NCBI GenBank assembly: GCA_945883815.1
Contig: CAMCYJ010000037.1
Location: forward strand, 1-32,664
Reading direction: 5' to 3'
DNA from: Akkermansia muciniphila
Lineage (GTDB): Bacteria > Verrucomicrobiota > Verrucomicrobiia > Limisphaerales > UBA9464
DNA length: 32,664 nt
The number at the start of each line of letters is the position of its first letter. Position 1 is the first letter of the stretch. Positions 787-22,737 of this stretch are shown here, piece by piece. Both the position numbers and the translations under genes were made by a program. The notes under the pieces were generated by a model. The model was not told the DNA's origin. It did not search any database and saw nothing but the letters and a program-made list of their open reading frames with translations.

Positions 787-2862
787 ATGAATTTCTTGAT
801 GCCCACCTCAAGGCGCCCATCGCACTGGTTGCCAAGCCTGTCCCTGGTTTTGGTTTTTGCGTCGGCCCAAGTGATGACGAGAAGCCTCTTGGCTGATGGT
901 CCATCGGACAATTCGTCTCAATCTGTTCGACGTGTACCACCGGTGGGGATCGCGATCTCAGAATCGATACAGCAAGAACTGAGTGCCGAGGCAAAGATGC
1001 TGGAAACCAATCTCTCCGAAGCTCGGTTACGCTGGTCCCGTAATCCACAGCAACTGAATCATTGGGCGGACATCGCAGTTTTCGCCAAGTCAGTGGACTG
1101 GTCGCTGCGCTATCAGGAGATCTTCAAGACCAACGAGGTGGATTTCGCCCGTTTGCAGTTGAAGACAGCTACCGAACGATTGCAGGCACTGGACAAGGGA
1201 CAGGCTCCTTGGACGGATGTTCCTGGGCCCACGGTTGGCGGATATGTGTCCCGGATTGATGGATCCGTACAACCGTTCGGATTGGTGATCCCGCAAGGTT
1301 GGCGCCCCAACTCCGGCAGACAGTGGCGCCTTGATTTTTGGTTCCATGGACGGGGCGAGACACTGAGCGAACTGGCCTTCATCGCAGACAGAATGAGGAA
1401 TGTCGGTGAATTCGCCCCTCCAGATGCGTTCGTCCTGCACCTCTACGGGCGCTATTGCAACGGCAGCCGATTCGCCGGAGAAACCGATTTCTGGGAGGCT
1501 TTCAAGGAGGTCCAACGGCGCTATCCAATTGATGAGAACCGCCTGATCGTTCGAGGGTTTTCGCTCGGTGGAGCATCTGCTTGGCACTTCGCCGTGCACC
1601 ACGCAACCCGATGGGCCGCTGCCGCTCCCGGCGCCGGATTCAGCGAGACGGCCGAATTTCTCCGAGTCTTCCAACAGGAGCAACTCCGCCCCGCTGTGTG
1701 GGAACAGAAGCTTTGGCGACTGCATGACGCGACGGCAAATGCAGTGAATGTATCCATGGTCCCGCTCATCGCCTACAGCGGTGAAGAGGATCGCCAGATC
1801 CAGGCTGCAGACGCGATGCGATCTGCATTGCGGGCCGAGGGCATCGAGTTGACCCATCTGATCGGACCCAGGACAGGTCACAAATACGAGGCAGGGGCCA
1901 AGGCAGAACTGAATCGTCGATTGGATGCATTGGCGGCAGCAGGTCGCACCCGGGTGCCGCGTGAGGTTCGCATGGTGACCCATTCGCTGCGATACCCCCA
2001 GATGGCGTGGGTGACCGTCGACGCATTGACTGAACACTGGGAGCCAGGTCGCGTGATAGCGCAACTCCCGGATGGGGACAGGCTCCTTCGGGTCGAGTCC
2101 GACGGTGTGGAAGCTCTAACTCTTGAATTCGGCCCGGGCGATGCGCCATTTCCAGTCCACCAACCCGTTCGGGTGGCTTTCGCGGGAACGGACAACACGG
2201 TGATCCTGGAATCCACGCGACCCGGAACCGATCGTTCTTGGAAGGCCAGCTTCCACCGCAAAAACGGGGTCTGGAGGACGGGTCCAGATCTGACAGCAGG
2301 GCTGCGCAAACGTCACGGACTCCAAGGGCCCATCGACGACGCCTTCATGGATTCTTTCATGATGGTGCTACCAACTGGAACACCACTGAACACCGCCGCC
2401 GGCAATTGGGTGACAAGCGAGTCAGCCCGAGCCATCGAACATTGGCGGCGTCACTATCGCGGTGATGCCCGACAGAAGTCCGACAAGGATGTCTCGGAAG
2501 CGGATATCCGCGATCACAACCTCGTTCTGTGGGGAGACCCTTCGAGCAACCAACTGCTCGCCAAACTGGCCCCGTCACTCCCCATTCGGTGGGAAAAGGA
2601 TCGAATCGTGGTGGGAGGCCAATCCTTTGCCACCGACACCCACGTTCCGATCCTGGTGTTCCCGAACCCCTTGAATCCCACCCGCTACATCGTGCTAAAC
2701 AGCGGATTCACTTTCCGGGACTACGACTATCTCAACAATGCACGACAAACCCCAAAGCTTCCGGACTGGGCCATCATCGATCTTCGGCAGCAGCCCAATG
2801 CCCGAACCCCGGGCAGAATTTCCGCCGCAGGGTTCTTTGATGAACGTTGGGAACTGCGCTGA
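787..2862 (+). CDS. Secreted alpha/beta-hydrolase (prolyl oligopeptidase-like) of unknown substrate
   Basis: A 691-residue protein with an N-terminal signal sequence (basic start, hydrophobic LPSLSLVLVFASA at about 17-29). The middle third has an alpha/beta-hydrolase fold: FWFHGRGE as the probable oxyanion strand, the nucleophile elbow GFSLGG with Ser259, an acid in GEEDRQ (Asp335) and the histidine in TGHKYE (His365), giving a plausible Ser-Asp-His triad. Residues from about 390 to the end form a beta-rich region with no family I can name. Secreted proteins of this layout are common in Planctomycetes and Verrucomicrobia as 'prolyl oligopeptidase family' enzymes; peptidase versus esterase activity cannot be decided. 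The ATG at 787 has no clear Shine-Dalgarno but is followed directly by the signal peptide. The gene converges on alaS with a 24-bp gap. It contains three copies of the GGGACAGGCT motif, one of them inside the signal-peptide codons. Confidence 0.8.
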   Translation: MNFLMPTSRRPSHWLPSLSLVLVFASAQVMTRSLLADGPSDNSSQSVRRVPPVGIAISESIQQELSAEAKMLETNLSEARLRWSRNPQQLNHWADIAVFAKSVDWSLRYQEIFKTNEVDFARLQLKTATERLQALDKGQAPWTDVPGPTVGGYVSRIDGSVQPFGLVIPQGWRPNSGRQWRLDFWFHGRGETLSELAFIADRMRNVGEFAPPDAFVLHLYGRYCNGSRFAGETDFWEAFKEVQRRYPIDENRLIVRGFSLGGASAWHFAVHHATRWAAAAPGAGFSETAEFLRVFQQEQLRPAVWEQKLWRLHDATANAVNVSMVPLIAYSGEEDRQIQAADAMRSALRAEGIELTHLIGPRTGHKYEAGAKAELNRRLDALAAAGRTRVPREVRMVTHSLRYPQMAWVTVDALTEHWEPGRVIAQLPDGDRLLRVESDGVEALTLEFGPGDAPFPVHQPVRVAFAGTDNTVILESTRPGTDRSWKASFHRKNGVWRTGPDLTAGLRKRHGLQGPIDDAFMDSFMMVLPTGTPLNTAAGNWVTSESARAIEHWRRHYRGDARQKSDKDVSEADIRDHNLVLWGDPSSNQLLAKLAPSLPIRWEKDRIVVGGQSFATDTHVPILVFPNPLNPTRYIVLNSGFTFRDYDYLNNARQTPKLPDWAIIDLRQQPNARTPGRISAAGFFDERWELR
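835..844 (-). repeat. GGGACAGGCT dispersed motif, copy 1 (reverse orientation)
   Basis: Reads AGCCTGTCCC on the plus strand. It lies in the signal-peptide region of the hydrolase gene and is read there as Ser-Leu-Ser(-Leu). Confidence 0.85.
1197..1206 (+). repeat. GGGACAGGCT dispersed motif, copy 2
   Basis: Exact copy in the hydrolase gene, read as Lys-Gly-Gln-Ala, the same translation frame as the tandem copies in the sulfatase gene. Confidence 0.85.
2075..2084 (+). repeat. GGGACAGGCT dispersed motif, copy 3
   Basis: Exact copy preceded by G, in the hydrolase gene. It is read as Gly-Asp-Arg-Leu, a different frame from copy 2 in the same gene. Confidence 0.85.
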
Positions 2863-2886
2863 CCTCAAAAGATCCTAAGGAATGCT

Positions 2887-5628
2887 TCAGAGGAGAGTCT
2901 TGGCCTTGGCTAGGGCCTCCTCGAGTCGGGAAACATCCTTACCACCACCACGAGCCCCATCCGGACGCCCTCCACCCTTACCACCAATGATCGGGGCAAT
3001 GGCCTGAATGAGCTTGCCAGCCTGGACTTTGGCAGTGAACTCCGGAGTCACTGCGGAAACCAAGGCGACGGCGCCGGCCGAATGACCTCCCAAAAGGATG
3101 ACGCCATTAAACTGGGACTTCAGCACATCCACCACGGTCTGAAGGGTTTCGCCATCGGCCTCACCCAGATTCGCGATCAACGCCGGGACACCATTCAGCG
3201 TCTCGGACTTGGCCAACAAGTCCCGAGCCTTGCCAGCCGCCTCGCGCTGGGAGGCGGCCTTGAGGGATTTCTCCAACTCGCGACTATGCGCCAAGAGCCC
3301 CTCTAGCTTTTTCTCCAGTTCACCCAGAGGGCTGTTGAGTTTGGTGGCCAATGAGCGGATCAGAGTCTCGTCGACACGCGATTTTTCGAGGGAGGGCATC
3401 CCGGCGATGGCCTCAATACGACGGACTCCGGCGGCTACCGCCGATTCGCCCAAGATGCGGAACATTCCGACTTCACCCGTGGCTCGGGTATGTGTTCCGC
3501 CGCAGAGCTCCATGGAATACCCGTTGAGCTGGGCGGCCTGTCCGCCGATTTGCACGACACGAACGATGTCGCCGTATTTATCACCGAAGAACTGGAGCAC
3601 ATCCTTGCGATTTTTGACCTCGGCATGAGGAACCTCGACCCACCCCACGTGAGCGTTCTCCAGAATGCGCTCATTGACCAGCCGTTCGATGTCGATCACC
3701 TGCTGAGGGGTCAGAGGGGCACTGTTGAAGTCGAAGGTCAGCTTCTCCGGAGTGACGTTGGAACCTTTCTGCGAGGCTTCTTTGCTGGCCACTTCATGAA
3801 TTGCCCAATGCAGCAGGTGAATCACCGTATGGTGACGCTCGATGGCTCGCCGACGGTCCGCATCGACGCGGAGGCTCACCGATGAACCAACCAACGGAGC
3901 ATCACCACCTTCAATGAAATGCAGCCAGACGTTGCCGGATTTCTGGGTGCTGGCGATGCGCCAGAGATGCCCGGATCCAATGATCTCGCCGGTGTCACCC
4001 ACTTGCCCGCCCATCTCTGCGTAGCAGGCGGAGGCATCGAGGATGATGGCGGTTTTGTCTTTCAACTCGACCACTTCCAAAACCTGGGCCCCGATCTCCA
4101 ATGCGTCGTACCCGAGGAACCGCGTCGCAGACTTGGTCTCAATCTGTGAGAGTTCGATGACCTGCTTTTTCTGAGAGGCTCGAGCACGGGCTCGCTGCAC
4201 CTCCATCAGTTCTTCGAAACCCACCTTGTCCACCGACAGTCCGCGCTCGCGGGCCATGAGTTCGGTGAGGTCCAGTGGGAAACCTTGCTCATCGTACAAC
4301 CGGAAGGCGAACGCGCCCGAGATCTGCGAGGAGGCGGCCTGTGATGATTCCTTTTCGAACAACTCGATGCCTCGATCCAAAGTGCGATTGAAGGCCTCTT
4401 CCTCGAGACGCAGGACATCCTTCACCTGCTGCTTGCGGGTGCGGATCTCCGGAAACACATCGCCCATGGTCCGGGCCAACACGTCGACAAGCTTGTAGAA
4501 GAACGGCTCGTGGAACCCCAGCGTACGCCCATAGCGCACCGCGCGGCGCAGGATGCGACGCAGGACATAATTGCGGTCGCTGTTGCCCGGTTGGATGCCA
4601 TCGGCGATGGCAAAGCTCAGAGTCCGAATGTGGTCGGCGATGACCCGGAAGGCCACGTCCACCTTCTCTTGCTCGGTGTCTCCGGTGCTGCCCTGCTTCG
4701 GCAACGTAGAACCGTATTTCTGGCCACTGAGCTGTTCTATCTCGTCGAAGATCGGTCGGAAGATATCGGTCTCGTAGTTCGAGATCTTCGCGTTCTGGAA
4801 ATCCGTGAGGCCTCGGGTGCCTTGGATGATCGAAGTCACCCGTTCGAAGCCCATGCCCGTGTCGACGTGCTGCGCCGGCAGCGGTGTGAAGGTGCCATCT
4901 GGATTGGCGTTGTACTGGATGAACACATTGTTCCAGATCTCGATGCATCGAGCATCTGAACCGTTGACCAGCTTGGCCCCCTCGGCCTGCTCCTCGAACG
5001 ATGTTTCACGAGCGCCCGGACGCAGATCGACATGAATCTCCGTGCAGGGGCCGCAAGGACCGGTTTCGCCCATCATCCAGAAGTTGTCCTTCTTGCCGCC
5101 GTTGACGATGTGGATTTCCGGATCCAAACCGACCGACCTGAACTTTGCGGCCCACAATTCCCAAGCTTCTTGATCGCGCTCTGCGGGATCCTTTTTGGCC
5201 GCATTGGGCTGATATATTGTGGCGTAGACCCGCTGCGGCGGAAACTTCCAGACCTCGATGACCAACTCCCAGGCCCAATCGATGGCGTCCTTCTTGAAGT
5301 AGTCGCCGAAGGACCAATTCCCCAGCATCTCGAAAAAGGTATGGTGATAGGTGTCCAGGCCGACGTCGTCCAAATCATTGTGTTTGCCACCGGCGCGGAT
5401 GCACTTCTGGGTGTCAGCGGCCCGGGTATCGAGTGCCGGCACCGAACCGGCCCACTTGGAGACATCGGCTTTTCGTTCGCCCAAGAAAATCGGAACGAAC
5501 TGATTCATGCCGGCATTGGTGAACAGCAGGTTGGGGCTGTCCGGCAATAGGCTGGAACTAGGAACGATCGTGTGCTGCTTGGAATGAAAGAAGTCCAAGA
5601 ACGACTGGCGGATCTGGGCGGACGTCAT
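2887..5628 (-). CDS. alaS: Alanyl-tRNA synthetase
   Basis: A 913-residue cytoplasmic enzyme that charges tRNA-Ala with alanine and clears mischarged Ser/Gly. The N-terminus IRQSFLDFFHSKQH and LFTNAGMNQFVPIFLG are standard class II AlaRS catalytic-core blocks, with WMMGETGPCGPCTEIH around residue 180. The editing domain keeps its zinc/catalytic set: His600 and His604 (HTVIH) and Cys709 and His713 (CGGTH). The C-terminal C-Ala domain ends in the glycine-rich GGKGGGRPDGARGG block. The frame is open upstream to 5790, but the codons there encode a Pro/Arg-rich stretch unlike AlaRS; ATG at 5628, giving MTSAQIRQSFLDFF, fits the family start exactly. It is somewhat longer than the 875-residue E. coli enzyme. 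Transcribed divergently from the receiver gene, with a 236-bp gap as leader/promoter. Confidence 0.97.
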   Translation of the reverse strand: MTSAQIRQSFLDFFHSKQHTIVPSSSLLPDSPNLLFTNAGMNQFVPIFLGERKADVSKWAGSVPALDTRAADTQKCIRAGGKHNDLDDVGLDTYHHTFFEMLGNWSFGDYFKKDAIDWAWELVIEVWKFPPQRVYATIYQPNAAKKDPAERDQEAWELWAAKFRSVGLDPEIHIVNGGKKDNFWMMGETGPCGPCTEIHVDLRPGARETSFEEQAEGAKLVNGSDARCIEIWNNVFIQYNANPDGTFTPLPAQHVDTGMGFERVTSIIQGTRGLTDFQNAKISNYETDIFRPIFDEIEQLSGQKYGSTLPKQGSTGDTEQEKVDVAFRVIADHIRTLSFAIADGIQPGNSDRNYVLRRILRRAVRYGRTLGFHEPFFYKLVDVLARTMGDVFPEIRTRKQQVKDVLRLEEEAFNRTLDRGIELFEKESSQAASSQISGAFAFRLYDEQGFPLDLTELMARERGLSVDKVGFEELMEVQRARARASQKKQVIELSQIETKSATRFLGYDALEIGAQVLEVVELKDKTAIILDASACYAEMGGQVGDTGEIIGSGHLWRIASTQKSGNVWLHFIEGGDAPLVGSSVSLRVDADRRRAIERHHTVIHLLHWAIHEVASKEASQKGSNVTPEKLTFDFNSAPLTPQQVIDIERLVNERILENAHVGWVEVPHAEVKNRKDVLQFFGDKYGDIVRVVQIGGQAAQLNGYSMELCGGTHTRATGEVGMFRILGESAVAAGVRRIEAIAGMPSLEKSRVDETLIRSLATKLNSPLGELEKKLEGLLAHSRELEKSLKAASQREAAGKARDLLAKSETLNGVPALIANLGEADGETLQTVVDVLKSQFNGVILLGGHSAGAVALVSAVTPEFTAKVQAGKLIQAIAPIIGGKGGGRPDGARGGGKDVSRLEEALAKAKTLL

Positions 5629-5724
5629 GATATGCAGATCGGGGATTTTAAAACGCCCCGGAAACAGGCCCCGAAGGTTAAAGATCGGCAGGAAAATAGG
5701 AAGAACCCTGTTTGAGCCGCTGTT

Positions 5725-6266: not shown

Positions 6267-6736
6267 GGAGCGCCAGTCGCTGCATGACTGGATTACAAAT
6301 CTCGTTTTTTTCGCTCACAGCCGCCGTTGTCTGTGGATGCGGCTCACTCAGCGGACCCGCTGTGACCTACACAGCGGCCCGGGTCAGCGGCCGAGTCTCT
6401 GATTCGGTCACTGGAAAGCCTGTCCCCAATGCCATGGTCGGGCGAACTCTCTGGACCCACCGCCGTGGCACGGGCGGTTTCCTGAAGGCAGCCGAAGAAC
6501 AGGTCTTGCGACAGGATTTCGCGGTCAGTGATTCCGATGGACGCTTCGTTCTTCCGGAACAGCGGGTGGCCCTGCTGCTTTCTCTGGGAGAAACCCGTCC
6601 CAATCTGCGACTTGCAGTGAGTCATTCACGGCACTCCTCCTGGACGACGAACTACCCCGTCTCGGCACTGGAAAAAGACCCCAGTCGGCCCAGTCTGAAT
6701 GCCGGCAACATTTTTCTAACCCCCCGCAAACCCTGA
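6263..6736 (+). CDS. Small lipoprotein with carboxypeptidase-regulatory-like fold
   Basis: A 157-residue protein with a signal sequence and a plausible lipobox (V-C-G-C, modified Cys26 with this start). Residues after about 35 (RVSGRVSDSVTGKPVPNAMV, then SDSDGRFVLP) match the start and middle strands of transthyretin-like/carboxypeptidase-regulatory beta-sandwich domains, usually stalk or surface modules. I chose GTG at 6263 because it gives the n-region two arginines and a GTGA overlap with the receiver gene; ATG at 6284 is an alternative that would leave an uncharged n-region. Coupling of a receiver to a lipoprotein is unusual. The codons for KPVP contain a GGGACAGGCT motif copy in reverse. 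Function unknown beyond an envelope location. Confidence 0.7.
   Translation: MRSASRCMTGLQISFFSLTAAVVCGCGSLSGPAVTYTAARVSGRVSDSVTGKPVPNAMVGRTLWTHRRGTGGFLKAAEEQVLRQDFAVSDSDGRFVLPEQRVALLLSLGETRPNLRLAVSHSRHSSWTTNYPVSALEKDPSRPSLNAGNIFLTPRKP
6417..6426 (-). repeat. GGGACAGGCT dispersed motif, copy 4 (reverse)
   Basis: AGCCTGTCCC on the plus strand inside the lipoprotein gene, read as Lys-Pro-Val-Pro in the conserved 'TGKPVPNA' turn of the domain. Confidence 0.85.
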
Positions 6737-6770
6737 CTGGTTCCTAAATAGCAGTTTCCTGCGGCCGTCA

Positions 6771-6785: not shown

Positions 6786-6808
6786 CCAGCGCTCGTCGTG
6801 GTGAAAAG

Positions 6809-6840
6809 AGCCTGTCCCTAAAGGCTCATGTCCCTAAAGG
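6809..6840 (-). repeat. GGGACAGGCT motif copy 5 within a 16-bp direct repeat
   Basis: An exact AGCCTGTCCC at 6809-6818 is followed by a second, degenerate copy. The 12-mer TGTCCCTAAAGG occurs at 6813-6824 and again at 6829-6840, a 16-base period. It is intergenic, upstream of the sulfatase gene. Confidence 0.8.
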
Positions 6841-6953: not shown

Positions 6954-6963
6954 AGCCTGTCCC
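6954..6963 (-). repeat. GGGACAGGCT motif, copy 6, just before the sulfatase start
   Basis: AGCCTGTCCC ends 8 bases before the ATG at 6972, where a ribosome-binding site would normally sit. It is one of only two intergenic exact copies. Confidence 0.8.
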
Positions 6964-6971: not shown

Positions 6972-9900
6972 ATGAACCTGCGAAGATACGTACGTTGCAT
7001 CCTGATTGTTGTATTTGGAGCAGGCTGTTTTTTGACTTCCAGAACGTCAGTAGCTAGCACCCCGACCCAACGCCCCAATGTGGTCCTCATTCTGGCGGAT
7101 GATTTGGGGTTCTCCGATCTCGGGTGTTACGGAGGCGAAATCCCAACACCCCACCTCGACGCCCTCGCCTCGGGCGGACTTCGCTACACCCAGTTTTACA
7201 ATACGGCTCGCTGTTGGCCCTCCCGCGCCGCCGCCCTGACCGGGTTCTACGCGCAGCAGGTGCGACGCGATACCGTCCCCGGCGTCCCGAGCGGCACCAA
7301 CGGAAAACGCCCATCCTGGGCCAAACTCCTGCCCGAATACCTCAAGGACTTGGGCTATCGCTCCTACCATTCCGGGAAATGGCATGTCGATGGCAAGCCG
7401 CTGGCCAATGGATTTGAGCACTCCTATCGATTGGATGATCACGACCGGTATTTCGCTCCCCGGTTCCATTCGGAAGAGGACGTCGCCCTGGAGCCTGTCC
7501 CTACCAACTCAAATTACTACGCCACCACCGCGATCGCTGACCACGCGATCCGGTGCCTAAAAGAACATGCAACCCGGTTCCAAGATCGGCCGTTCTTCAG
7601 TTTCGTGGCGTTTACGGCGCCGCATTTTCCAGTTCAGGCCCCGGCCAGTGACGTGGAACGCCATCGCAATCGCTACCTGAGCGGATGGGATCAACTCCGG
7701 GAGGAACGCTGGAATCGAATCCAATCATCCGGCGTGGTCTCCGGAACATTGCCGCCAATGGAACGCGAAATCGGGCCGCCCTACGACTTTCCCGATGCCC
7801 TGAAATCTCTGGGAGCCAACGAGGTGAACCGGCCAATGCCGTGGGCGGACCTCTCCAGCAGCCAACGCCGTTTTCAGGCCGACAAAATGGCGGTCCACGC
7901 GGCCATGGTGGATCGGATGGATCAGGAAATCGGCCGGATCGTCCGCCAACTCCAGACCATGGGCCACTTCGACGACACGTTGCTGTTGTTCCTTTCGGAT
8001 AATGGTGCCAGCGCCGAGATGATGGTGCGCGGTGACGGACATCAATCCGATGCCTTGTGCGGAACCGGGGCGACGTTTCTCAGCATCGGCCCTGGTTGGT
8101 CCTCTTTGGCCAACACACCGTTTCGCCGTCACAAGACCTGGGTGCACGAAGGGGGCATCGCCACGCCATTCATCGTGCACTGGCCAAGGGGCATCGGCCA
8201 ACGGGGCACGTTGCGAAAGACGCCGGGCCATCTCATTGATCTGGTCCCCACGGTTCTGGAATTGGCCGGAGGAAACTGGCCAGAAAAGGATCACCCCCCC
8301 GAAATGCCGAAGCCGCCCGGCCTCAGCCTGGTCCGGACCTTTGCTCAAGACACCGATCTGAAGCGGGAAGCCCTCTGGTGGCAACATGAGGGTAATCGAG
8401 CCCTTCGACAGGGGGATTGGAAGATCGTGGCCTCCGGCACGAACAGCGCTTGGGAACTCTACAACCTCGGTCGGGATCGGTCTGAAACGATCAATCTGGC
8501 CTCCAAACATCCCGAACAGGTTCTGGCCATGGCCGCGCGGTGGGAGTCCATGACGGCATCGCATGCGGCCACGGCAAAGGCCCGCCCCAACGCTTCCTCG
8601 CTGTTTCCAGAATGGAAACATTCCGCCTCTCTGTTTGTCCTCACGACACCGGATGGTGCCCACCTTCCGGATGGGGTCACGCTGGAGTCTTTCCCCCTCC
8701 TCGTCCGCCTCAGCCGCGACGACTTGGACTTCTCACAAGCCTGTCCCCATGGGGAGGACCTGCGCTTTTCAACACCCGAGGGACAGGCTCTGCCTTTCGA
8801 AATCGAATCCTGGGACACCGACAACGGTTCCGCTGCCATTTGGGTGCTGATTCCCCAGATCCGCGGCAACCAGCGGCAAGAACTCCGCGTCCACTGGGGA
8901 AATCCGACCGCCAAAACCGCCTCTAGCGGCTCTCAGGTCTTCAACCCATCCCATGGGTATATCGGAACCTGGCACCTCGGAGAGTCGATCCAGGATACCA
9001 CTGGAACCTTGGTTTCCGAAAACCGTGGAACCACCCCCATGCCCGGAGTTATCGGAACCGCCCGACGCTTCAAGGAAGGCCATGGCGTCTTTGGAGGGGA
9101 TACCTCCAACCGCTATCCTGCCGGCGCTGGCCCGCACACCTCACAAGCGTGGTTCCGGGCGGATCAACCCAACGGCCGGATCCTCGCCTGGGGCAATGAA
9201 CACGCCCAAGGCAAGGTGGTCCTCCACTACACCAGCCCTCCTCAGGTCCGGTTGGACTGCTATTTTTCTGGAGCCAACGTCGCAACCCAGAATCCGGTTC
9301 CCGCCCATCAATGGAACCATGTCGTCCACACCTGGGAAGCCGGTGAATCCAAGGTCTACATCAATGGAATCCTGGATGGCGTGTCGCGGACACCGAGAGC
9401 TCCATTGAACTTACGACAACCCGCCCGGTTGTGGATTGGCGGTTGGTACGACCACTTCGATTTTGAGGGCGTTATCGATGAAGTTCGCGTTTCAAACCGG
9501 GTTCGCAGCCCTGATTGGATCCGATTGGAATATGAGAATCAAAAGCCGTTACAAACCGTCGTCGGACCCATCGTTCAACCCGGTCGCAATTTCAAAGTCA
9601 CTCTGGATGTAACGTCCGAAACCTCCAAGGGACAGGCTACCTCCAAGGGACAGGCTCCGGTTGTCTTCAAGGGACAGGCTCCGGTTCCGGTTGTCTTGGA
9701 GGAGGGACAGGCTCTGGGGTTGATGGCACAGGCCGGTGGGGCACAGCGGGTTTGGTGGACTCGGCAGGATGCTGCAGGGGCACCGGTGGTGGTGGCGGTG
9801 AACCAGTTCCGTTACAAGCTCGAGGCAGGTCGGGTTTCAGGGGACTCGTCAGTAACCCAGACTTTCCATGCGGCCTACCCAGAAGGAATTCGCCAGCAGG

Positions 9901-11648
9901 AGATCCCTGTGACCATCCGGGAGGCCATCCCGGATCCGGAGTTCTCACTCAAGGCACCCCGTCGCTGGGACGGGCGCAGTCCGCTGTTATTAAAAGCCCA
10001 AATGAAATCGAACGAAGAGGCTCTCGTCGCGGCCGGAGCTTCAAAAATGAAGGTGACCTGGTCCGCGGAGCCACTGGCCACAGTTCGGGAAATCCGAGGC
10101 CATGACCTCATCCTAAAACGGGCACTTCATGGGGGCCAACTGACGGTGGCCGCCACGCTCGACAATGGCGGCACGCCGATCCGCAAATCAGTAACGTTAA
10201 CGGTTCAGCCCCCGAGCCATGACGGATGGGTGCAGCGATCACCCGAATCCGCGGAGTTGCCGCAAGACAACCAATTCTACGCCCGAAACGACCGCAATGA
10301 GGGAACGCTGGTTGCGACGGGCTCCATTCAAGAACCCGCCGAAGCGGTGGTGGTTCGCTTGTTTGCCCAAGATAAGTCGGGGAATGCCGGTGGGGCTAGG
10401 GACAGGCTCGTGATGCAACGCCGGGAACGGTTGAAGGCGGATCGCTCCTTTCGCTTCGATCTGCCCCTCAAGCCCGGGCTGATCCCATACCGCTTCGAAT
10501 TGGCACGCCTTCATGAGGGCCGCGAGACACGAGTGCATTTGGCCACCAATATCGCCTGCGGAGACGCCTACCTCATCGATGGGCAATCCAATGCGGTCGC
10601 CACGGATTGGGGTCCGGACAAACCCGACTTCCGCAGCAATTGGATCCGATCCTTCGGCAGTATGGGCCATGAACCCGCCGAAATAGCTTCCTGGGGCACG
10701 GCCGTCCATCGCGGGCGGGACAACGAACGCCATCAGGTGGGTTATTGGGCCATGGAATTGGGCCGCCATCTGGTCGAAACCCACCAGATCCCCGTTTGCT
10801 TGCTCAATGGAGCCGTGGGCGGTAGCCGTATTGATCAACACCAACGCAACCCGACCCATCCAACGGACCCAGCCACCATCTACGGTCGGTTGTTGGCCAG
10901 AGCGCGCGCCGCGAGGCTGACCCACGGCATCCGCGCCGTGATTTGGCATCAAGGCGAAAACGACCAAGGCGCTGACGGCCCCAGTGGCGGCTACGGCTGG
11001 GAAACGTACCGATCGCTCTTCATCGACCTCGCCGCGGCCTGGGCCACCGATTACCCGAACCTGCGCCACCACTACGCCTTCCAGATCTGGCCCAAGGCCT
11101 GTTCCATGGGCACCGATGGATCGGACAATCGACTTCGGGAGGTGCAGCGCAATCTCCCCTCGGCCGTGTCGCAACTGACGGTGATGTCCACTCTGGGCAT
11201 CCAACCTCCCGGGGGATGCCACTATCCGGCCCAAGGCTATGCCGAGATGGCACGCCTCATCGCCCCGTTGATCGATCGCGATCTGCATAGGCTGGATCCC
11301 AAGAAATCCATCACGGCTCCCCACTTGTTGCGGGCCGCCTATGGGGATTCAACCCACTCCCAACTGGTGTTGGAGTTCGACCAACCCGTGCGCTGGGATC
11401 CCGCTCTGATCCGCGATTTCTGGCTCGATGGCAGCAAGGATCGCATCGCCTCCGGAAGGACCGACGGCAACCGGTTGATCCTGACCTTGGACAAACCTCA
11501 CGAGGCTAAAACGATCACCTACCTCGACAGCGCGTCTTGGGATCCGGGACGCCTGCTGCGCGGCCTCAATGGCATCGCCGCCCTGACCTTCTGCGAGGTG
11601 CCGCTGGAAAGCCCGAAAGCGGCCCTCGAGAAAAAGAGGTCTCGCTGA
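6972..11648 (+). CDS. Secreted sulfatase fused to LamG and SGNH/sialate O-acetylesterase-like domains
   Basis: A 1558-residue exported protein. Signal peptide about 1-30. Residues about 35-530 are a type I sulfatase: LILADDLG (metal Asp), the formylglycine motif C-x-P-S-R with Cys81, SDNGAS, and HKTWVHEGG with the catalytic Lys/His region. Residues about 573-648 resemble DUF2341 and about 663-867 form a LamG/concanavalin-like lectin domain. About 870-1190 is beta-rich and starts with a KGQA repeat. Residues about 1195-1440 are an SGNH esterase: GQSN (Ser1206), WHQGEND (His1326, Glu1329) and GGCHYPAQGY (His1417). Together it should remove sulfate and acyl esters from a polysaccharide in the periplasm or outside. 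ATG 6972 is chosen over GTG 6894 because the signal peptide follows it. No formylglycine-generating enzyme is in the window. The gene holds eight GGGACAGGCT copies. Confidence 0.92.
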   Translation: MNLRRYVRCILIVVFGAGCFLTSRTSVASTPTQRPNVVLILADDLGFSDLGCYGGEIPTPHLDALASGGLRYTQFYNTARCWPSRAAALTGFYAQQVRRDTVPGVPSGTNGKRPSWAKLLPEYLKDLGYRSYHSGKWHVDGKPLANGFEHSYRLDDHDRYFAPRFHSEEDVALEPVPTNSNYYATTAIADHAIRCLKEHATRFQDRPFFSFVAFTAPHFPVQAPASDVERHRNRYLSGWDQLREERWNRIQSSGVVSGTLPPMEREIGPPYDFPDALKSLGANEVNRPMPWADLSSSQRRFQADKMAVHAAMVDRMDQEIGRIVRQLQTMGHFDDTLLLFLSDNGASAEMMVRGDGHQSDALCGTGATFLSIGPGWSSLANTPFRRHKTWVHEGGIATPFIVHWPRGIGQRGTLRKTPGHLIDLVPTVLELAGGNWPEKDHPPEMPKPPGLSLVRTFAQDTDLKREALWWQHEGNRALRQGDWKIVASGTNSAWELYNLGRDRSETINLASKHPEQVLAMAARWESMTASHAATAKARPNASSLFPEWKHSASLFVLTTPDGAHLPDGVTLESFPLLVRLSRDDLDFSQACPHGEDLRFSTPEGQALPFEIESWDTDNGSAAIWVLIPQIRGNQRQELRVHWGNPTAKTASSGSQVFNPSHGYIGTWHLGESIQDTTGTLVSENRGTTPMPGVIGTARRFKEGHGVFGGDTSNRYPAGAGPHTSQAWFRADQPNGRILAWGNEHAQGKVVLHYTSPPQVRLDCYFSGANVATQNPVPAHQWNHVVHTWEAGESKVYINGILDGVSRTPRAPLNLRQPARLWIGGWYDHFDFEGVIDEVRVSNRVRSPDWIRLEYENQKPLQTVVGPIVQPGRNFKVTLDVTSETSKGQATSKGQAPVVFKGQAPVPVVLEEGQALGLMAQAGGAQRVWWTRQDAAGAPVVVAVNQFRYKLEAGRVSGDSSVTQTFHAAYPEGIRQQEIPVTIREAIPDPEFSLKAPRRWDGRSPLLLKAQMKSNEEALVAAGASKMKVTWSAEPLATVREIRGHDLILKRALHGGQLTVAATLDNGGTPIRKSVTLTVQPPSHDGWVQRSPESAELPQDNQFYARNDRNEGTLVATGSIQEPAEAVVVRLFAQDKSGNAGGARDRLVMQRRERLKADRSFRFDLPLKPGLIPYRFELARLHEGRETRVHLATNIACGDAYLIDGQSNAVATDWGPDKPDFRSNWIRSFGSMGHEPAEIASWGTAVHRGRDNERHQVGYWAMELGRHLVETHQIPVCLLNGAVGGSRIDQHQRNPTHPTDPATIYGRLLARARAARLTHGIRAVIWHQGENDQGADGPSGGYGWETYRSLFIDLAAAWATDYPNLRHHYAFQIWPKACSMGTDGSDNRLREVQRNLPSAVSQLTVMSTLGIQPPGGCHYPAQGYAEMARLIAPLIDRDLHRLDPKKSITAPHLLRAAYGDSTHSQLVLEFDQPVRWDPALIRDFWLDGSKDRIASGRTDGNRLILTLDKPHEAKTITYLDSASWDPGRLLRGLNGIAALTFCEVPLESPKAALEKKRSR
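7492..7501 (-). repeat. GGGACAGGCT motif, copy 7 (reverse)
   Basis: AGCCTGTCCC inside the sulfatase domain codons, read as Glu-Pro-Val-Pro. Confidence 0.85.
8738..8789. repeat. Inverted pair of GGGACAGGCT motifs, copies 8 and 9
   Basis: AGCCTGTCCC at 8738-8747 and GGGACAGGCT at 8780-8789 face each other 32 bases apart in the DUF2341-like part of the sulfatase gene. They are read as Ala-Cys-Pro and Glu-Gly-Gln-Ala-Leu. The pair could fold into a 10-bp stem with a 32-base loop. Confidence 0.85.
9629..9713 (+). repeat. Tandem cluster of four GGGACAGGCT motifs (copies 10-13)
   Basis: Exact copies start at 9629, 9647, 9671 and 9704, all in one orientation and frame, encoding KGQA, KGQA, KGQA and EGQA. 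The first two sit in an 18-bp unit (ACCTCCAAGGGACAGGCT), and CCGGTTGTCTT-type spacers recur between later copies, so the block grew partly by tandem duplication. It falls in the linker between the LamG domain and the following beta-rich region (residues about 884-914). Confidence 0.9.
10399..10408 (+). repeat. GGGACAGGCT motif, copy 14
   Basis: Exact copy in the sulfatase-esterase gene, read as Arg-Asp-Arg-Leu, a different frame from the tandem cluster upstream in the same gene. Confidence 0.85.
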
Positions 11649-16588: not shown

Positions 16589-19453
16589 TTATCGCCCGGC
16601 CAAGGTCTTCGGGATGTAGCCGATGGAGGTCTGAATGGCGTGCGTGCATGAGCAACCCGCACTGGTTTCAGGCGCTAGCAGCATGCCGCCTGCCGGGATC
16701 ATGCTGAGCCAACATCCGGAGCGAATGCCCTCGAATTGGGTCCGTTTGTTCGATTCCAAATCCCACATGCCATGGAAGTGATGGCGGAAGAAGATCGCAT
16801 TGCGACCCGCCGACATGACTCCACACCCGCGCCGCTCCGGCAGGTCCTTCCGAACCAAGTCCCCTGAGTTGAGCTTGAAAGCCCGTTGATCGGAATAATA
16901 GGTGTCGCCGATGACCACCGGATGCTGGAGATGCCCGCTGTGATGTCCCTTGTCTTCCTTGTGGGATTCCGACCACAGGACGCGGCCACCGATGGCGCTG
17001 ATAATGTCGTCGCCGGTGTCTTGATTCCCCCGAGGGGACGGAGCGTTGAAAGCGAAGGTGTGGAAATTCTTGGAGGCATCGGTGCCGGTCACTACGACCG
17101 TGTTCTTCCCGTAGACCAAGTAGGTCATGAACTTGCAGGCGCTGAAATCATGGGTCTTCTGCCAGAGTTTCTTGCCGGTCTTCAAATCCAGGGCCACCAA
17201 CCATTGATCGGTCAGGATGTTGGGGTTCTGCCGGGCAAAGGGCGCTGAGATAGCCTCCGGATTTCGGCTCTCGAGGAAGAAGAGCATTCCGTCACCCAGG
17301 GTGATTGTGGAGTTGAGAACGGCTCCGCCCGAGTACTGCCAAACGGGTTTGCCGGTCTCCGGATCTGTGGCGAACAGCAAATCGCTGGTCACGCGGGCGA
17401 TTTGGTCGGCGGCATATTCCTCGTACCACTCGCCGTCATCCCCCAGATAGGCCGATCCCGGCTTCACTCGACTCCCGATCAGCAGACCACCCTCGGCGGC
17501 CACGTAACCCCAGTCACGGGCTTCCTCACCGGCGACCGGAACCGAGTAGCGACGAGACCGCGCGCCGGTCTGGGCATCAATTCCCAAGCAATGACGCCCG
17601 TGGGCCACGAAGAGCCTGTCCCCGGCGGCCGTCATGTTGGAACTGTCGCGAGTGACATTGGCCCGGCGGACTTCCGGACAGGAGAACGACCACAGGATCG
17701 CGCCGTTGTAGGCATCCAACCCGAAGAGGATGCGGTCGCCTTGGATCATCAGACGCCCATTGACGCTCAAAGGGGCCGGGTTGCGATTGCCGCGGTCAGG
17801 CATCGGTCGGGGCCCCGGGTCGCCCCACCAGGCCACCTGCAACTCACCCCGGACCAAGTCATCCTGACTGCAGGAGGAATTGTCGGACCCGCCGTATTGA
17901 TGTGCCCAATCGCCCGCACCCACCAGACGACCCCGAACCCATCGGTGCCAATCGCCCCCGCCCGCCACCGAAGTCCACTGAGCCATGTCGGAACCCTTCG
18001 TCCAACGGGCCCACGCCTCGGATTGGTCGGCCGGCACCTCGGCCATAAATGCCCCGCCCACGGGCCGCAACAATCGGTGCACTTCGGCCGCCGGAACTTC
18101 CGGAGTCCGTCCTGAAGCCACGACAATCAGGTTGGCAGTCAGGCCGCCAAAGGGCAGTTGCGCGGATTCCGATTGCATCACCGTCGCTCGGACACCGTAG
18201 ATCCCAGCCTCGTCCAAACGCGCGCGCAGGCGCTGGATCAACGCAGCCTCCTTCTCCAACAAGACCACTTCCAAGTCGCTTTGTCGGACGAGTTCGATAG
18301 CCAGATCAGCATCGGTTGACCCAAAAATCAGCGCATACCCCTGGCGCACTCCGGAGGCCTGAATCACCTGTGCGGCACGGGAGGCCGCCGGCGTCTTGAG
18401 CGAGGCTGCTGGCTGGGCCGGGCGATAGTAAAACGACGAGTCGAAGAGATAACGGCGGCTGGTCACCGGACGCCCCTCGCGATCCGGGAAAATCAACCGG
18501 TAGTGGTACTCCCGATCGGGCAAGAGTCCGGTGAGTGTCACCGAATGGTTGCGCGCATGGCCCACGCCCCATCGGCGTCGCGTGCCATCCGGCATGTCCA
18601 ATTCCAATGCGGTTGGTTCGTCAGTCAGGGTCTCCCAGACCACGTTCACCGTGGACCGATCCACCCAATCGATGAACGGACCGAAATCCGGCCTGGCGAA
18701 GATCGGCTCGGGTGCGGGTTCCGGAAACAGGCGTTTCCGGGCCTCGTAGTGAGACTGCAATTCCGCCGAGGGCACGGCGCGACGGAATAGTCCTACCTCA
18801 TGCAAGGCGCCGCTCAAACGGAAGTGCTCATCGTCGTCCTGATACGCCCCGATGACCATGGGGCCGGATGGCGCATACAAAATGGGACCCGACTGATCGC
18901 GACTGGTCGCCACTACCGCGCCATCCACCACCAGGCGCATCTCGGCGCCGTCATACACTCCAGCGACATGATACCACCGGTTGGTCTGGAACGCGGTCGG
19001 AGCAGACAGAAGAGTGAGGCGTTTGCCGCCTTCGGAGGCGAGGGCGAACGCGAATTTGGATTCGACGAATCCCAGCACCCAACCGCGCTCGAAGTCGCCA
19101 TTGTCCTGAACCTGTCCGATGAACCCGCCCCACGGAGTGACACGGTCCACGCGGACCCAGGCTTCGGCCGTCATGTCGCGCTCGGGCAGCAGCGCCCGAT
19201 CCGGCGCATTGGCCACCACGATGCGTTCGTCGCGGCCCGGAAGCTCGATCCGCGGCGGACCGGGATCCTTCACCAGTCTGGGTTTGCCCACGAAGGTCAA
19301 CTCCTTGCCGACGGGCGATCGCATACCCGCGTTCTGTGCCCACTCCGGGGCGAAGACCCAGCGCCCGATGCGGCCGGTTTCCTGGGCGCACAAACTCAGT
19401 GCGGTGGAGAGAAGTACGGAGACGCCGAGGCGAATCAAAGAAGCGGAATTCAT
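16589..19453 (-). CDS. Exported LamG / methyltransferase-like / PQQ-like propeller protein
   Basis: A 954-residue protein; ATG 19453 directly precedes the signal peptide MNSASLIRLGVSVLLSTALS and overlaps the upstream propeller gene by 4 bases (ATGA). Residues about 25-220 form a LamG lectin fold, about 240-340 a fibronectin/phosphatase-N-like sandwich (NVVWETLTDEPTALEL, LTGLLPDREYHYRL). About 355-490 resembles a class I methyltransferase Rossmann fold (ALIFGSTDADLAIEL, then LEVVLLEKEAA, LRPVGGAFMAEVP). About 520 to the end is a PQQ/BamB-type beta-propeller (ILFGLDAYNGAILWSF, LVALDLKTGKKLW). The C-terminal part has Cys877, His891/892/894, Cys914, Cys934, Cys936 and His938. It resembles large Planctomycete 'PQQ-binding-like' proteins of unknown function. 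It is the last gene of the nine-gene operon. Confidence 0.82.
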   Translation of the reverse strand: MNSASLIRLGVSVLLSTALSLCAQETGRIGRWVFAPEWAQNAGMRSPVGKELTFVGKPRLVKDPGPPRIELPGRDERIVVANAPDRALLPERDMTAEAWVRVDRVTPWGGFIGQVQDNGDFERGWVLGFVESKFAFALASEGGKRLTLLSAPTAFQTNRWYHVAGVYDGAEMRLVVDGAVVATSRDQSGPILYAPSGPMVIGAYQDDDEHFRLSGALHEVGLFRRAVPSAELQSHYEARKRLFPEPAPEPIFARPDFGPFIDWVDRSTVNVVWETLTDEPTALELDMPDGTRRRWGVGHARNHSVTLTGLLPDREYHYRLIFPDREGRPVTSRRYLFDSSFYYRPAQPAASLKTPAASRAAQVIQASGVRQGYALIFGSTDADLAIELVRQSDLEVVLLEKEAALIQRLRARLDEAGIYGVRATVMQSESAQLPFGGLTANLIVVASGRTPEVPAAEVHRLLRPVGGAFMAEVPADQSEAWARWTKGSDMAQWTSVAGGGDWHRWVRGRLVGAGDWAHQYGGSDNSSCSQDDLVRGELQVAWWGDPGPRPMPDRGNRNPAPLSVNGRLMIQGDRILFGLDAYNGAILWSFSCPEVRRANVTRDSSNMTAAGDRLFVAHGRHCLGIDAQTGARSRRYSVPVAGEEARDWGYVAAEGGLLIGSRVKPGSAYLGDDGEWYEEYAADQIARVTSDLLFATDPETGKPVWQYSGGAVLNSTITLGDGMLFFLESRNPEAISAPFARQNPNILTDQWLVALDLKTGKKLWQKTHDFSACKFMTYLVYGKNTVVVTGTDASKNFHTFAFNAPSPRGNQDTGDDIISAIGGRVLWSESHKEDKGHHSGHLQHPVVIGDTYYSDQRAFKLNSGDLVRKDLPERRGCGVMSAGRNAIFFRHHFHGMWDLESNKRTQFEGIRSGCWLSMIPAGGMLLAPETSAGCSCTHAIQTSIGYIPKTLAGR
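17613..17622 (-). repeat. GGGACAGGCT motif, copy 15
   Basis: On the coding (minus) strand it reads GGGACAGGCT, translated as Gly-Asp-Arg-Leu in a propeller blade of the preceding gene (AAGDRLFVA). It is the only exact copy between 10.4 and 21.8 kb. Confidence 0.85.
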
Positions 19454-20877
19454 GGCCGGGAAGAGGTCGAAGCGTTGGAAGATGCAGAAGGTTCCGAGGC
19501 ACTCGGAGAGCGAAGACACAAAACGGCACCGCGATCGGTGCTAACAAACCCCGCGTCATCGGCCGCGGCCAACCCGTAGGCGATGCCGGGCACCGGGAGT
19601 TTCCATCCCAGTTTTCCTGTCGCTACCGGCAATCCAGCCACTTCGCTGGAGCCGCCGAGGATGAGGGTGTCGCCCGACAAGATCACGCAATGGGGCCAGA
19701 TCGAAGGCACCTTCCACAGCAGGCACTGGTCCATGGCCTGGGTGGCTTCATCAAGGCGTTTGCCCAAGTCGACCAACTGCTTCTTGATGCCTTCCCGCTC
19801 GGCCTCGGTGCCCGATTTGCCTGCGAGGGATTTGGCCTTCTTGGCCAAGGCAGCTTGTTGGCGCGAGATGGATTTCCGCTCACGCGCCAGTTGCAAATAG
19901 CGACCGCGGTCCAAGGCGCTGATTTCCGAATCCGAGTGCAAGTACGAGCGGTCGCCCGTGACGATCATGTGGTTGCCCTGGAAGCTGGCCAATTGATCCG
20001 AACTCCCCTCCTCCACCGCTCCCAATTGCCCGGTCTTGCCTGGGCCAAAGACCAACAAATCGTCGCTCAGGAGCGCGTACGTTCCGCCGGCTCCTTCAAC
20101 GACCCGAACGCGCTTGCCCGTGGCGATGTCGCAAACGGCCGGATTGTTGCGCCCCGCCGGCACGTAAAGGCGACTACGGGAAGCCAGCATGTAGCCCTGG
20201 GCCGGGAGGTCATTCTGAACCTGTCGCCAGACTTCCGTTCCGGTGCCCGCATCCAATGCCACCAAGTGCACTCCGTCGGCCGGAAACATCCCTGCCGTCA
20301 CATACACCTTGCCGTCTTGGACCACCACCGAGGTGCGCACCGGCCAGGCCGAAATGATGCGACTGTTGCCCGGAATCCGTCGATCCGTCGGAACGGCGCG
20401 GGTCTTCCAAATCAACTGCCCATCGTCTGACTTGAGGCAGTAGACGCAGCCATCATCGCTGCCGAAATAGAGGCGATCGCCGAGAAGGGTCGGCGCCAAC
20501 CGGACCGGTCCCTCGCTGAAAAAACTCCAGAGCACTTTGCCCGATCGGGTGTCCAAGCAACGCACTTGATCATCTGCCGACGAACCGAAGTACGCCCGAC
20601 GTCCGGAGACTACGACATGGAAAGCGCGATCGAAGGCTTGGCGCGGCTTCAAGTCGAAGACCTTGTTCCAGCCATCCCACTTGGCTTCCCCCTGCCACGC
20701 GGGTTGCGGCGGGTGCTGGGATTGCCAAGTCCACGAGACCACGGGTGTGCCGGCCAGGCTCTGGGTGGAGACACCACTGCGGGAATAATCTCCGCGGTAG
20801 GTGGGCCAGTCGGCGGCCTGGGCCGTGGCCAAAGCCAATGCGGCGGCCGATGCGATCAAAGTGCAAAATCGGTTCAT
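19450..20877 (-). CDS. Exported PQQ-like beta-propeller protein with coiled-coil insert
   Basis: A 475-residue protein with a clear signal peptide ([21 protein letters not shown]) followed by DWPTYRGDYSRSG, the usual opening of PQQ/BamB-type propellers in this group. Blade repeats include DDQVRCLDTRSGKVLWSFF, DGCVYCLKSDDGQLIWK and HLVALDAGTGTEVWR. At about 326-388 a Lys/Glu/Gln-rich coiled coil interrupts the propeller before the final blades (LPVATGKLGWKLPVPG). Binding of PQQ itself cannot be inferred; these repeats often act as scaffolds. Both ends overlap neighbours by ATGA (with the LolD-like ATPase gene upstream and the LamG-propeller gene downstream), so all three should be made together. 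In related bacteria I recall the equivalent of this protein and the next as one long chain. Confidence 0.85.
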   Translation of the reverse strand: MNRFCTLIASAAALALATAQAADWPTYRGDYSRSGVSTQSLAGTPVVSWTWQSQHPPQPAWQGEAKWDGWNKVFDLKPRQAFDRAFHVVVSGRRAYFGSSADDQVRCLDTRSGKVLWSFFSEGPVRLAPTLLGDRLYFGSDDGCVYCLKSDDGQLIWKTRAVPTDRRIPGNSRIISAWPVRTSVVVQDGKVYVTAGMFPADGVHLVALDAGTGTEVWRQVQNDLPAQGYMLASRSRLYVPAGRNNPAVCDIATGKRVRVVEGAGGTYALLSDDLLVFGPGKTGQLGAVEEGSSDQLASFQGNHMIVTGDRSYLHSDSEISALDRGRYLQLARERKSISRQQAALAKKAKSLAGKSGTEAEREGIKKQLVDLGKRLDEATQAMDQCLLWKVPSIWPHCVILSGDTLILGGSSEVAGLPVATGKLGWKLPVPGIAYGLAAADDAGFVSTDRGAVLCLRSPSASEPSASSNASTSSRP

Positions 20878-21587
20878 GATGCGGAGTCGTTGAAAGAGGT
20901 AAATGCGGACGGAATGGCCCAGCGACCGGCCTCGAGGCGGAGACGTTGGGTGGCATACCGATTGGCGTCGGAACCGTGAGTGACCAGCACCACCGTGCCA
21001 CCGGAGCGACGGTAGTGGTCCAAGTGCTCGAGCACCCGGGCCGCATTGTCGGGATCCAGATTGCCCGTCGGTTCATCGGCCAAAATCAATGGCGGTCGCT
21101 TGACCAAGGCTCGGGCCAAGGCCACCCGTTGCCGCTCACCGGCACTCAGCGTCGCGGGGTTTGCATCGCGGCGCTCGGTCAATCCCAGCGCAGCGATCCA
21201 CCGATCGGCTTCCGTCGGCTCAACAGCAACCCCCGGCGGCAGTCCGGAAAGCACATTGCGGTGCACGCTCAGGTAGGGCACGAGGTGGAACAATTGGAAG
21301 ACGAAGCCCACCGAACGCGCCCGATATCCGGCCCTCTCGATGGCGTTGAGGCGGGTCAACTCCACCCCGTCGATTCGCAAGGTTCCACTCTCCGCCCGGA
21401 GCAGCGCTCCCAACAGGAGCAACAAGGTGCTCTTGCCCGATCCACTGGCGCCTTGGATCACCACGAACTCGCCGCGCTCCACGCGCAGGGACACATCGGA
21501 AACACCGGCTACCACACCAGGTTTGGAGGCGTAATTCCGGGTGAGGCCCGAGGCTTCGATGAGGGGGGAGTTCATGGCGTCATCCAT
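20874..21587 (-). CDS. ABC transporter ATPase, LolD/MacB type
   Basis: A 237-residue ATP-binding subunit. Walker [11 protein letters not shown]-loop [14 protein letters not shown], signature [15 protein letters not shown], Walker [13 protein letters not shown] and H-loop VTHGSD are all present. The EPTGNLD form and short length place it with LolD/MacB/FtsE-type ATPases that partner FtsX-fold permeases, which is what the gene just upstream encodes. These systems extract or push substrates in the envelope by mechanotransmission and do not move them across the inner membrane. ATG 21587 overlaps the permease gene by 8 bases; ATG 21575 would leave a 4-base gap. The stop overlaps the propeller gene start (ATGA). 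Confidence 0.92.
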
Positions 21588-22737
21588 CGGCCCGGAGTGT
21601 TTCGGCCGGGTCTTGCGACACGGCCATCATCGCCGGCAGAAAACTGGAGGCAGCCGCGAACAGCGGCGTCCAGGTCAGGGCCGGTACGATCAGCGTAGGA
21701 TCCATTTTCAACGAGGCCGCCGTCACCGGAAACAGCACAGGCCCCCAGCGCAACGCCACGGTGGTCCCGACCGCCCATCCCAACGCACCGCCCAACCCAC
21801 CCAGCAGCACGGCCTTGCCCAAGAACAGCGCGGCAATGCGCGAGGAGCCTGTCCCCAAGGCACGCCAGAGACCGATCTCCACCCGGCGCTGGCGCACGTT
21901 CAAAATGGCCAGCACCAAAATCCACACGGCCGCCACCAGCAAGGTCATCGGCACGGCAAAGGCGCTCACCCGTTCCGAGGCCTGCCGTTGCTTGGCCCGT
22001 GCGTCGGCCAAGGCGCGCATTTGAATCACCCGAGCCTCCGGCAACAATTGCGACAACGCTTCGCGGATCTTCGGCAAGGGATCCTGATCGGCCGTCAGGC
22101 ACAGGCAGTCGATGGCTTTGATCTCGCTGATGCGACCTGGCAACCCGAGGGCGATTTGTGCATCCGACAAGGCGGTGTAGAGCCGCACGTCTTCGTCCGT
22201 TCCCGCCTCCACCAAAACCCGCTCCACGCGGAGTGTTCGGCCGGCTACTTCCACAGTTCCACCCACCTTCACTCCCAATCGCTCGGCCAAAATGCTCCCG
22301 ACCTGTGCTGTTCCCGGGGCAATGCGAAAACCCATGGGCTGCTTTTTTTCACCCGGCCCCACCACCGTGTCACCCAGACCCGTGAGCAAACATTCATGCC
22401 CACCCACGCGAATGCGCCGCTCCAGCACGGGCGTCAGGTGGTTGAAGGTGATGAATGTTCCAGCACCGGCTGCCAGGCGAGTCACGGTATCCGCCGGCAG
22501 CGTGTTCTCCGAATAGCCTTCCAGAAAAAACCGTTCCGGATCGGTGTCCTTGGGAAGAATGCGCAAGTTGAACCCCATGTCCCGGACCACACGCCGGGTC
22601 TCGCGTTCTGCAGCCGCGGTGAGCAACTGCACCGCCGTGAGCAAGGTCACCGCTCCCGTCAATGCGACGAGCATCAGGGCGGAGTTGAGGCGGGAGTACC
22701 ACCCTTCCCGCAAGATGTTCTGGAGAGTGAAGTTCAT
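21580..22737 (-). CDS. FtsX/MacB-type ABC permease
   Basis: A 385-residue inner-membrane protein. A first transmembrane helix near residues 18-38 is followed by a periplasmic domain of about 220 residues, then three C-terminal helices, the FtsX/MacB_PCD plan. The cytoplasmic coupling segment RRVEIGLWRALG, before helix 3, is characteristic of FtsX-type permeases. It pairs with the LolD-like ATPase encoded next. The frame is open to 22812, but ATG 22737 (MNFTLQNILREGW) gives the usual N-terminal amphipathic helix and an exact ATGA overlap with the upstream gene. The periplasmic domain should define what the complex acts on; I cannot match it to LolC/E or MacB specifically. Confidence 0.88.
   Translation of the reverse strand: MNFTLQNILREGWYSRLNSALMLVALTGAVTLLTAVQLLTAAAERETRRVVRDMGFNLRILPKDTDPERFFLEGYSENTLPADTVTRLAAGAGTFITFNHLTPVLERRIRVGGHECLLTGLGDTVVGPGEKKQPMGFRIAPGTAQVGSILAERLGVKVGGTVEVAGRTLRVERVLVEAGTDEDVRLYTALSDAQIALGLPGRISEIKAIDCLCLTADQDPLPKIREALSQLLPEARVIQMRALADARAKQRQASERVSAFAVPMTLLVAAVWILVLAILNVRQRRVEIGLWRALGTGSSRIAALFLGKAVLLGGLGGALGWAVGTTVALRWGPVLFPVTAASLKMDPTLIVPALTWTPLFAAASSFLPAMMAVSQDPAETLRADG
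21846..21855 (-). repeat. GGGACAGGCT motif, copy 16
   Basis: On the coding strand it is read as Gly-Thr-Gly inside RALGTGSSR of the FtsX-like permease, the third possible frame of the forward motif. It sits in the conserved coupling region, so it is tolerated within a functional segment. Confidence 0.85.

Follow-up and report, generated by a model that had tools for sequence, protein, structure and literature searches.

Why should one asymmetric ten-base word recur again and again in both orientations, inside unrelated genes, within a short stretch of a Verrucomicrobiota genome? The stretch, hereafter the window, is a whole contig of 32,664 nt (C37; GenBank CAMCYJ010000037.1, assembly GCA_945883815.1, labelled Akkermansia muciniphila) from a draft genome, G000, of 3.96 Mb in 189 contigs (G, C and L numbers below denote genomes, contigs and loci). 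A preliminary description of the window listed 16 exact copies of the word, GGGACAGGCT, and every coordinate and strand proved exact (16/16), while 100 dinucleotide-preserving shuffles of the window gave a mean of 0.11 copies and never more than 2. The word is held at the DNA level and seems to be recognized as DNA by some component of the cell, as in the few DNA-marking systems known. We think it quite probable that the word is read in trans and maintained by a factor whose identity as a protein, like the purpose of the word, we infer.

An exact word in excess across the genome

The excess extends across the whole of G000, which holds 237 copies against 19 of the reversed control word, split almost evenly between the strands (121/116). 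In a 386-kb sample of the genome, GGGACAGGCT was the most enriched 10-mer, with 117 copies against 0.97 expected under a fourth-order Markov model. This sample (385,885 bases, the window included) was drawn largely from contigs in which copies were already known and serves for context and the logo, density being taken from the whole-genome counts. The excess is thus genome-wide, and the copies stand at many unrelated loci rather than at one duplicated locus, which removes the doubt, raised in the preliminary description, that the repeat might be a local oddity. The copies do form regional clusters, seen in the window (16 copies vs 2.0 predicted from the genome mean) and on contig C8. Contigs C8 (at its end) and C62 (at its start) break off inside word arrays, and for that reason our count probably falls short of the real number of copies.

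The copies are exact. All 30 one-mismatch forms pooled occurred 35 times in the sample against 27 expected, 23 of these occurrences having no exact copy within 100 bp, and two-mismatch forms were at expectation (357 vs 367); in the window, one-mismatch forms have a single occurrence. With one-mismatch forms so near chance, the exact copies are not accompanied by a population of decaying ones. The earlier remark that a purine precedes every copy in the window and that C mostly follows was borne out (before: A 10, G 6; after: C 11/16, T 3, A 2), and the same holds for the 44 of 117 sampled copies that are isolated, with no other copy within 60 bp: a purine precedes 43 and C follows 31, with a weak second C in 21, and no other clearly shared flank was seen among these 44. 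The fuller consensus, which goes beyond the preliminary description, is RGGGACAGGCTC(C).

The other 73 sampled copies (42 intergenic, 31 in genes) stand in tandem arrays or close pairs. Their units are mostly 18–24 bp long (once 11 bp among the strongest arrays), their spacers vary between arrays, and neighbours less than 60 bp apart share one orientation in 44 of 46 cases; the array at L058:1-87 alone holds five copies. At two places on C8 (L049:240-310 and L049:13300-13410), a short stretch, CTTTCAGAA or TTCTGAAAG, follows the copies. Such arrays might reflect a minisatellite expansion, in which the word would merely mark slippage-prone arrays spread by duplication, and of the 12 tandem arrays with the highest scores (at least 89, hand count) 10 do contain the word, while the array at 9621 in the window varies in copy number among species. 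However, only 14 of the 54 arrays of period 10–60 contain the word, and slippage would explain neither why the same core sits in arrays with different spacers nor the 44 isolated copies, which lack shared flanks and are conserved. We consider this origin very improbable.

According to the gene calls (made by a simple codon-score caller, whose starts are uncertain and which missed the short open reading frame (ORF) 6263-6736 holding the window copy at 6417), 62 sampled copies lie in genes and 55 in intergenic DNA, although the latter makes up only ~10% of the sample (p 6e-25, if copies are taken as independent). A gene start was present in 17 of 18 classified intergenic regions. This distribution would suit operators of a transcription factor, with arrays upstream of genes, but many copies lie deep inside genes, the orientation to genes is mixed both within them (36 same, 26 opposite) and upstream of a single gene (11 same vs 14 opposite), and convergent regions are only slightly under-represented (1/18 vs ~16% of intergenic length). 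Nor did a Pfam scan of 48 proteins at or around copies (31/33 genes beside copies, 16/19 genes around) find a common function, several proteins having no family. The genes are diverse, including GcvP, PurK, GlgB, MoeA, LpxI, MgsA, the sulfatase and RCC1 repeats among others, and therefore no regulon is apparent; a role as operator is improbable.

Conservation and origin of the copies

We aligned orthologous regions in congeners (787-2862, 6263-11690 and C8:12000-18700), with the other 10-mers of the same alignments as the control. The word was exact at 12/15 orthologous sites in G001, 12/14 in G002, 9/12 in G003, 10/15 in G005, 16/18 in G010, 14/18 in G014, 13/16 in G015, 15/18 in G017 and 8/11 in G018, counts that include the array at 9600-9720, where the alignment is ambiguous. 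Control 10-mers were exact in 14–29% across these nine motif-rich species (0.29 for G010, 0.14 for G015). The result agreed when copies found in another species served as the reference (e.g., G015 to G000, 9/9 vs control 0.14). The locus L133, introduced below, keeps 2/7 sites (controls 8–9%), and the motif-poor G004, G006, G007, G008, G012 and G013 keep 0/7 pooled. Both arms of an inverted pair at 8738/8780, 42 bp apart, are kept in G001, G005, G010 and G017.

This conservation exceeds what the proteins demand. Among those comparisons with the nine motif-rich species in which the residues spanning the word are unchanged, the array being left out, the 10-mer was exact in 63 of 67, as against 22,257 of 57,484 control 10-mers (38.7%), and the p value of this test is not a true probability because the comparisons share ancestry. 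Amino-acid identity at the word sites is itself ordinary (67% vs 62%). The proposal that selection acts on the DNA and not on the protein, made from the window alone, is thereby supported. A tree built from partial gene columns put motif-poor species in implausible positions (G007 beside G002) and was not used to count gains and losses.

Where an orthologue lacks the word, a stretch of equal length but different bases mostly stands in its place. At 8780, G002 reads GGGGCGACCA and G015 reads CGGACGACCT; at C8:17744, the word is present in only one of eleven species, G000, and several congeners read GAGGCAGGCT or GAGGTAGGCT. Sorted by reference, the non-exact comparisons were of the same length versus gapped in 27/2 (G010), 22/0 (G015), 14/6 (G002), 15/2 (G001), 10/2 (G016) and 10/7 (G009) cases; G011, with one isolated copy, gave no alignment. 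Isolated copies therefore arise by substitution at sites already similar to the word, not by insertion. The same-length orthologues rule out a frame-preserving 12-bp insertion (R + 10 + C) for these copies, and the idea of a minimal mobile repeat, put forward in the preliminary description, finds no support in them either, though for the tandem arrays it may hold in part. The array at 9621-9713, the sole one compared between species, behaves otherwise, changing in copy number: some species carry more in-frame repeats of its 18-bp unit.

In the window, no copy lies in alaS (2887-5790), in ubiD (11727-13253) or to the right of 21855, and 14 copies are intragenic once those at 6809 and 6954 are set aside; by their coordinates, these 14 occupy all six combinations of frame and strand, as had been described. 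The S9-peptidase-like gene 787-2862 contains three: 835..844 (− strand), near its 5′ end, exact in 4/4 species aligned at a flank identity of 0.71–0.76; 1197..1206 (+), read GQA, exact in 8/10; and 2075..2084 (+), exact in 9/11 at a flank identity of 0.68–0.91. The copy at 6417..6426 (−) in ORF 6263-6736 is exact in 9/10 species aligned. The intergenic copy at 6809..6818 (−), upstream of a sulfatase gene, and that at 6954..6963 (−), just upstream of the ATG at 6972 that is probably the true start, were each exact in the sole species aligned (1/1); with a shorter required flank, the latter was exact in G002 and G005 and not in G001.

The sulfatase gene itself (6894-11648) carries the copy at 7492..7501 (−), exact in 7/17 rows; nine of the 10 non-exact rows differ in bases but not in length, and G009 keeps the bases, flagged with an inserted base. 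The inverted pair, which the preliminary description did not mention, follows in the DUF2341 part, its left arm at 8738..8747 (−) being exact in 6/11 rows and its right arm at 8780..8789 (+) in 5/11, with same-length substitutes in G002, G015 and four others. The in-frame array at 9621..9713 (+) holds four copies (9629, 9647, 9671 and 9704); the 18-bp tandem duplication at 9621-9656 is likewise an addition to the earlier account, and in G005 several units of the array carry GGGAGAGGCT. A further copy at 10399..10408 (+), in the same gene, is exact in 8/8 species aligned. The last two lie at 17613..17622 (−) in a PQQ/laminin-G gene (16589-19519) and at 21846..21855 (−) in an FtsX-like permease gene (21580-22812). 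A tRNA was the sole match in an Rfam scan of the window, and 29526-30359 encodes a prepilin-like protein, at whose N terminus a stretch of the methylation type was recognized by eye.

Distribution and dialects among relatives

The word is patchy even within the genus, where ten genomes hold 132–275 copies (G000 237), three hold 53–88 and six hold 4–24. Control words number 8–19 in these six, of which G007 (24) and G008 (22) are about threefold above their control. Among the 31 genomes of the family outside the genus, G024, from another genus, has 349 copies and its eight congeners 2–19, and G027 is weakly raised (71 vs control 46); in the same order, G049 has 43 copies vs control 7. The 80 named UbiD loci that we collected (1.09 Mb) contain GGGACAGGCT only in L133 (9 copies) and L072 (1). 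L133 comes from a Verrucomicrobia metagenome-assembled genome (MAG) whose UbiD is the closest to that of the window (91% identity, among the 80 records kept from one named-genome search), the other UbiD relatives among these records being MAGs mostly labelled Limisphaerales, Pedosphaera or other Verrucomicrobia. Doubled words in viral contigs (15 and 12 stretches) looked on visual inspection mostly like short repeats of a coding type and led nowhere.

A one-mismatch search of 387 genomes of the phylum brought out G079, a member of another class (544 vs 34), along with slight rises in some others, e.g., G087, G261 and G354. The own word of G079 is GGGACAGGCA(C), top-ranked in a 226-kb sample, and the dialect GGGACAGGCAC has 504 exact copies in this genome (L227-L238) vs 1 for the control, with 38 in its congener G125 and 1 in G092. 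The words of the two groups, GGGACAGGCT in the own genus and G024 and GGGACAGGCAC in G079 and, less often, G125, thus differ by one base. In the G079 sample, 39 of 45 copies are intergenic, mostly in clusters and some in inverted pairs. G187 has a weaker excess (RGGGACAGGCTC with up to one mismatch, 103 vs 13 for the control) that is perhaps another dialect; the 53 kb sampled contain two GGGACAGGC only, with C after both, and do not account for the excess. The occurrence of the same word in different genera, together with sharp differences between congeners, suggests that the driving factor can be gained and lost, and we infer that it may be transferred horizontally.

The relatives also bear on whether the word is a minimal mobile repeat or a repetitive extragenic palindrome (REP) spread by a REP-associated tyrosine transposase (RAYT, of the Y1 type). 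The searches for Y1_Tnp covered 59 genomes including G000, G000 by itself and a selection of 11 genomes. G000 has 8 matches, with pieces at the ends of contigs C8, C11, C128, C20 and C177, and a piece at the end of C37 (window 3-521) was recognized by the C-terminal motif YRWSGY only, Pfam giving nothing for ORF 45-521; RAYT-like pieces at contig ends suggest multi-copy genes that break the assembly. Copies of the word lie near two of the pieces (the inverted pair L049:261/296 and window 835), and motif-rich congeners, with 4–11 Y1_Tnp matches, tend to exceed motif-poor ones, with 0–3 (but 9 in G007). The intergenic clusters, and the inverted pairs of G079, also recall REPs and the bacterial interspersed mosaic elements (BIMEs) they build. 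Unlike those elements, however, the word has no palindromic unit and often lies inside genes in G000, and its isolated copies replace an equal length, with no imperfect palindrome inserted as a unit and no shared flank in 44. Furthermore, Y1_Tnp had no match in G079, with its 504 dialect copies, nor in G092 or G125 of the same genus, and the word occurs in 0/30 Y1_Tnp loci of relatives and in 1/8 of those of G000. The genomes without Y1_Tnp and the Y1_Tnp loci without the word make a REP/RAYT origin unlikely; we regard it as extremely improbable and largely refuted.

What may read the word

The mechanism that we favor, while rating its chances somewhat below even, is self-DNA recognition in DNA exchange, with GGGACAGGCT as an uptake- or recombination-specificity word similar to the DNA uptake sequences (DUS) and uptake signal sequences (USS). 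A trans-acting factor would read GGGACAGGCT, or its fuller form RGGGACAGGCTC, as DNA in either orientation; isolated copies would arise in place through base changes at sites already similar to the word and would then be held by DNA-level selection or drive, some being multiplied into short tandem arrays, and the specificity gene of the uptake or exchange system could be gained or replaced. Such specificity would explain the exactness, both orientations, the unrelated genes, the in-place gain, the patchiness and the dialects. We propose tentatively, and would sooner expect to be wrong than right, that this is a horizontally exchangeable system of a kind so far unknown in Verrucomicrobiota, in which a protein imposes an exact asymmetric word of 10–12 bp, gained base by base within genes in six frames, and a switch of protein is a switch of dialect (CT or CA).

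DUS and USS, the words of Neisseriaceae and Pasteurellaceae, lie on both strands, with intergenic inverted pairs, and are dense and dispersed at about 1 per 1–2 kb, and the uptake receptors are of the pilin class (ComP). The present word, known here from its sequence, resembles them in the strong genome-wide excess of one 9–12 bp word on both strands, and differs in being far sparser, in forming tandem arrays and in having almost no near-misses. The portion of Frye et al. (2013, PMC3630211) drawn on here describes over-represented words of ~10 bp that also lie inside genes and, in Neisseriaceae, eight DUS dialects with few-base differences and a fixed CTG core, which the one-base dialect of G079 resembles in that respect.

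Several observations weigh against recognition for uptake. The density is low for an uptake word, at 1 per 17 kb in G000 and 1 per 6 kb in G079, and the copies are clustered, both in the window and in arrays; close copies would be redundant for uptake, yet the arms of the 8738/8780 pair are both kept in four species. Species with fewer copies keep few sites (G011 0/11, control 0.075; G009 4/10, control 0.08; G016 4/15, control 0.09), and the species comparisons are not independent. ComEC does not discriminate, since it occurs in 28 of the 30 genomes tested, motif-poor ones among them; G006 and G008, which lack it, are both motif-poor, but their drafts are incomplete (67% and 86%). A reader protein did not turn up, although no systematic search was made.

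Some of these features would suit a chromosome-organizing or repair/recombination protein that binds the word (in the nucleoid, in segregation, Chi-like, or methylation-linked as in the highly iterated palindrome, HIP1), the arrays then offering multivalent binding. The period of 18–24 bp in one orientation, the regional clusters and the retention of a pair 42 bp apart in four species all fit such a protein better than they fit uptake. Patchiness inside one genus, in contrast, would be odd for a core chromosome function, the strands are evenly used, and only 45 of 71 clusters lie on the locally G-rich strand (p 0.03, on draft contigs), which is weak support for a polar role like that of Chi or the FtsK-orienting polar sequences (KOPS). 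Chi-type recombination words are G-rich and asymmetric, and Chi, KOPS and matS are abundant or polar or palindromic. The present word is similarly G-rich and asymmetric, but longer, rarer, patchy within its genus and of little strand bias. We see a chromosome-binding or repair protein as possible and, on balance, doubtful.

HIP1 of cyanobacteria, to which the preliminary description likened the word, is described in the part of Elhai (2015, PMC4390886) used here as highly iterated, associated with methyltransferases, low or lacking in some relatives and of unsettled function. The likeness holds in that both are iterated, lie in genes in all frames and are patchy among relatives, and it ends at the palindrome that defines HIP1: the latter is the octamer GCGATCGC, with GATC/CGATCG methyltransferases, whereas the word here is asymmetric and about 10–12 bp long.

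Among the papers listed in a literature search for the word and its longer forms, no title concerned a prokaryotic or bacterial genome repeat, most subscription journals lying outside its coverage, and among those listed on Verrucomicrobia repeats none dealt with this word by title and abstract start. To our knowledge, the genome-wide words that are held at the DNA level fall into few known kinds (Chi, DUS/USS and HIP1). Here, one exact ten-letter word occurs hundreds of times in a bacterium of the Verrucomicrobia and is kept by its relatives beyond what their proteins need, and a similar word was not found among the papers listed on the phylum, by title and abstract start. For the question of how genome-wide DNA words spread and are kept up, close relatives with and without the word, gains at equal length and a one-base dialect in another class provide a natural comparison set for drive versus function.

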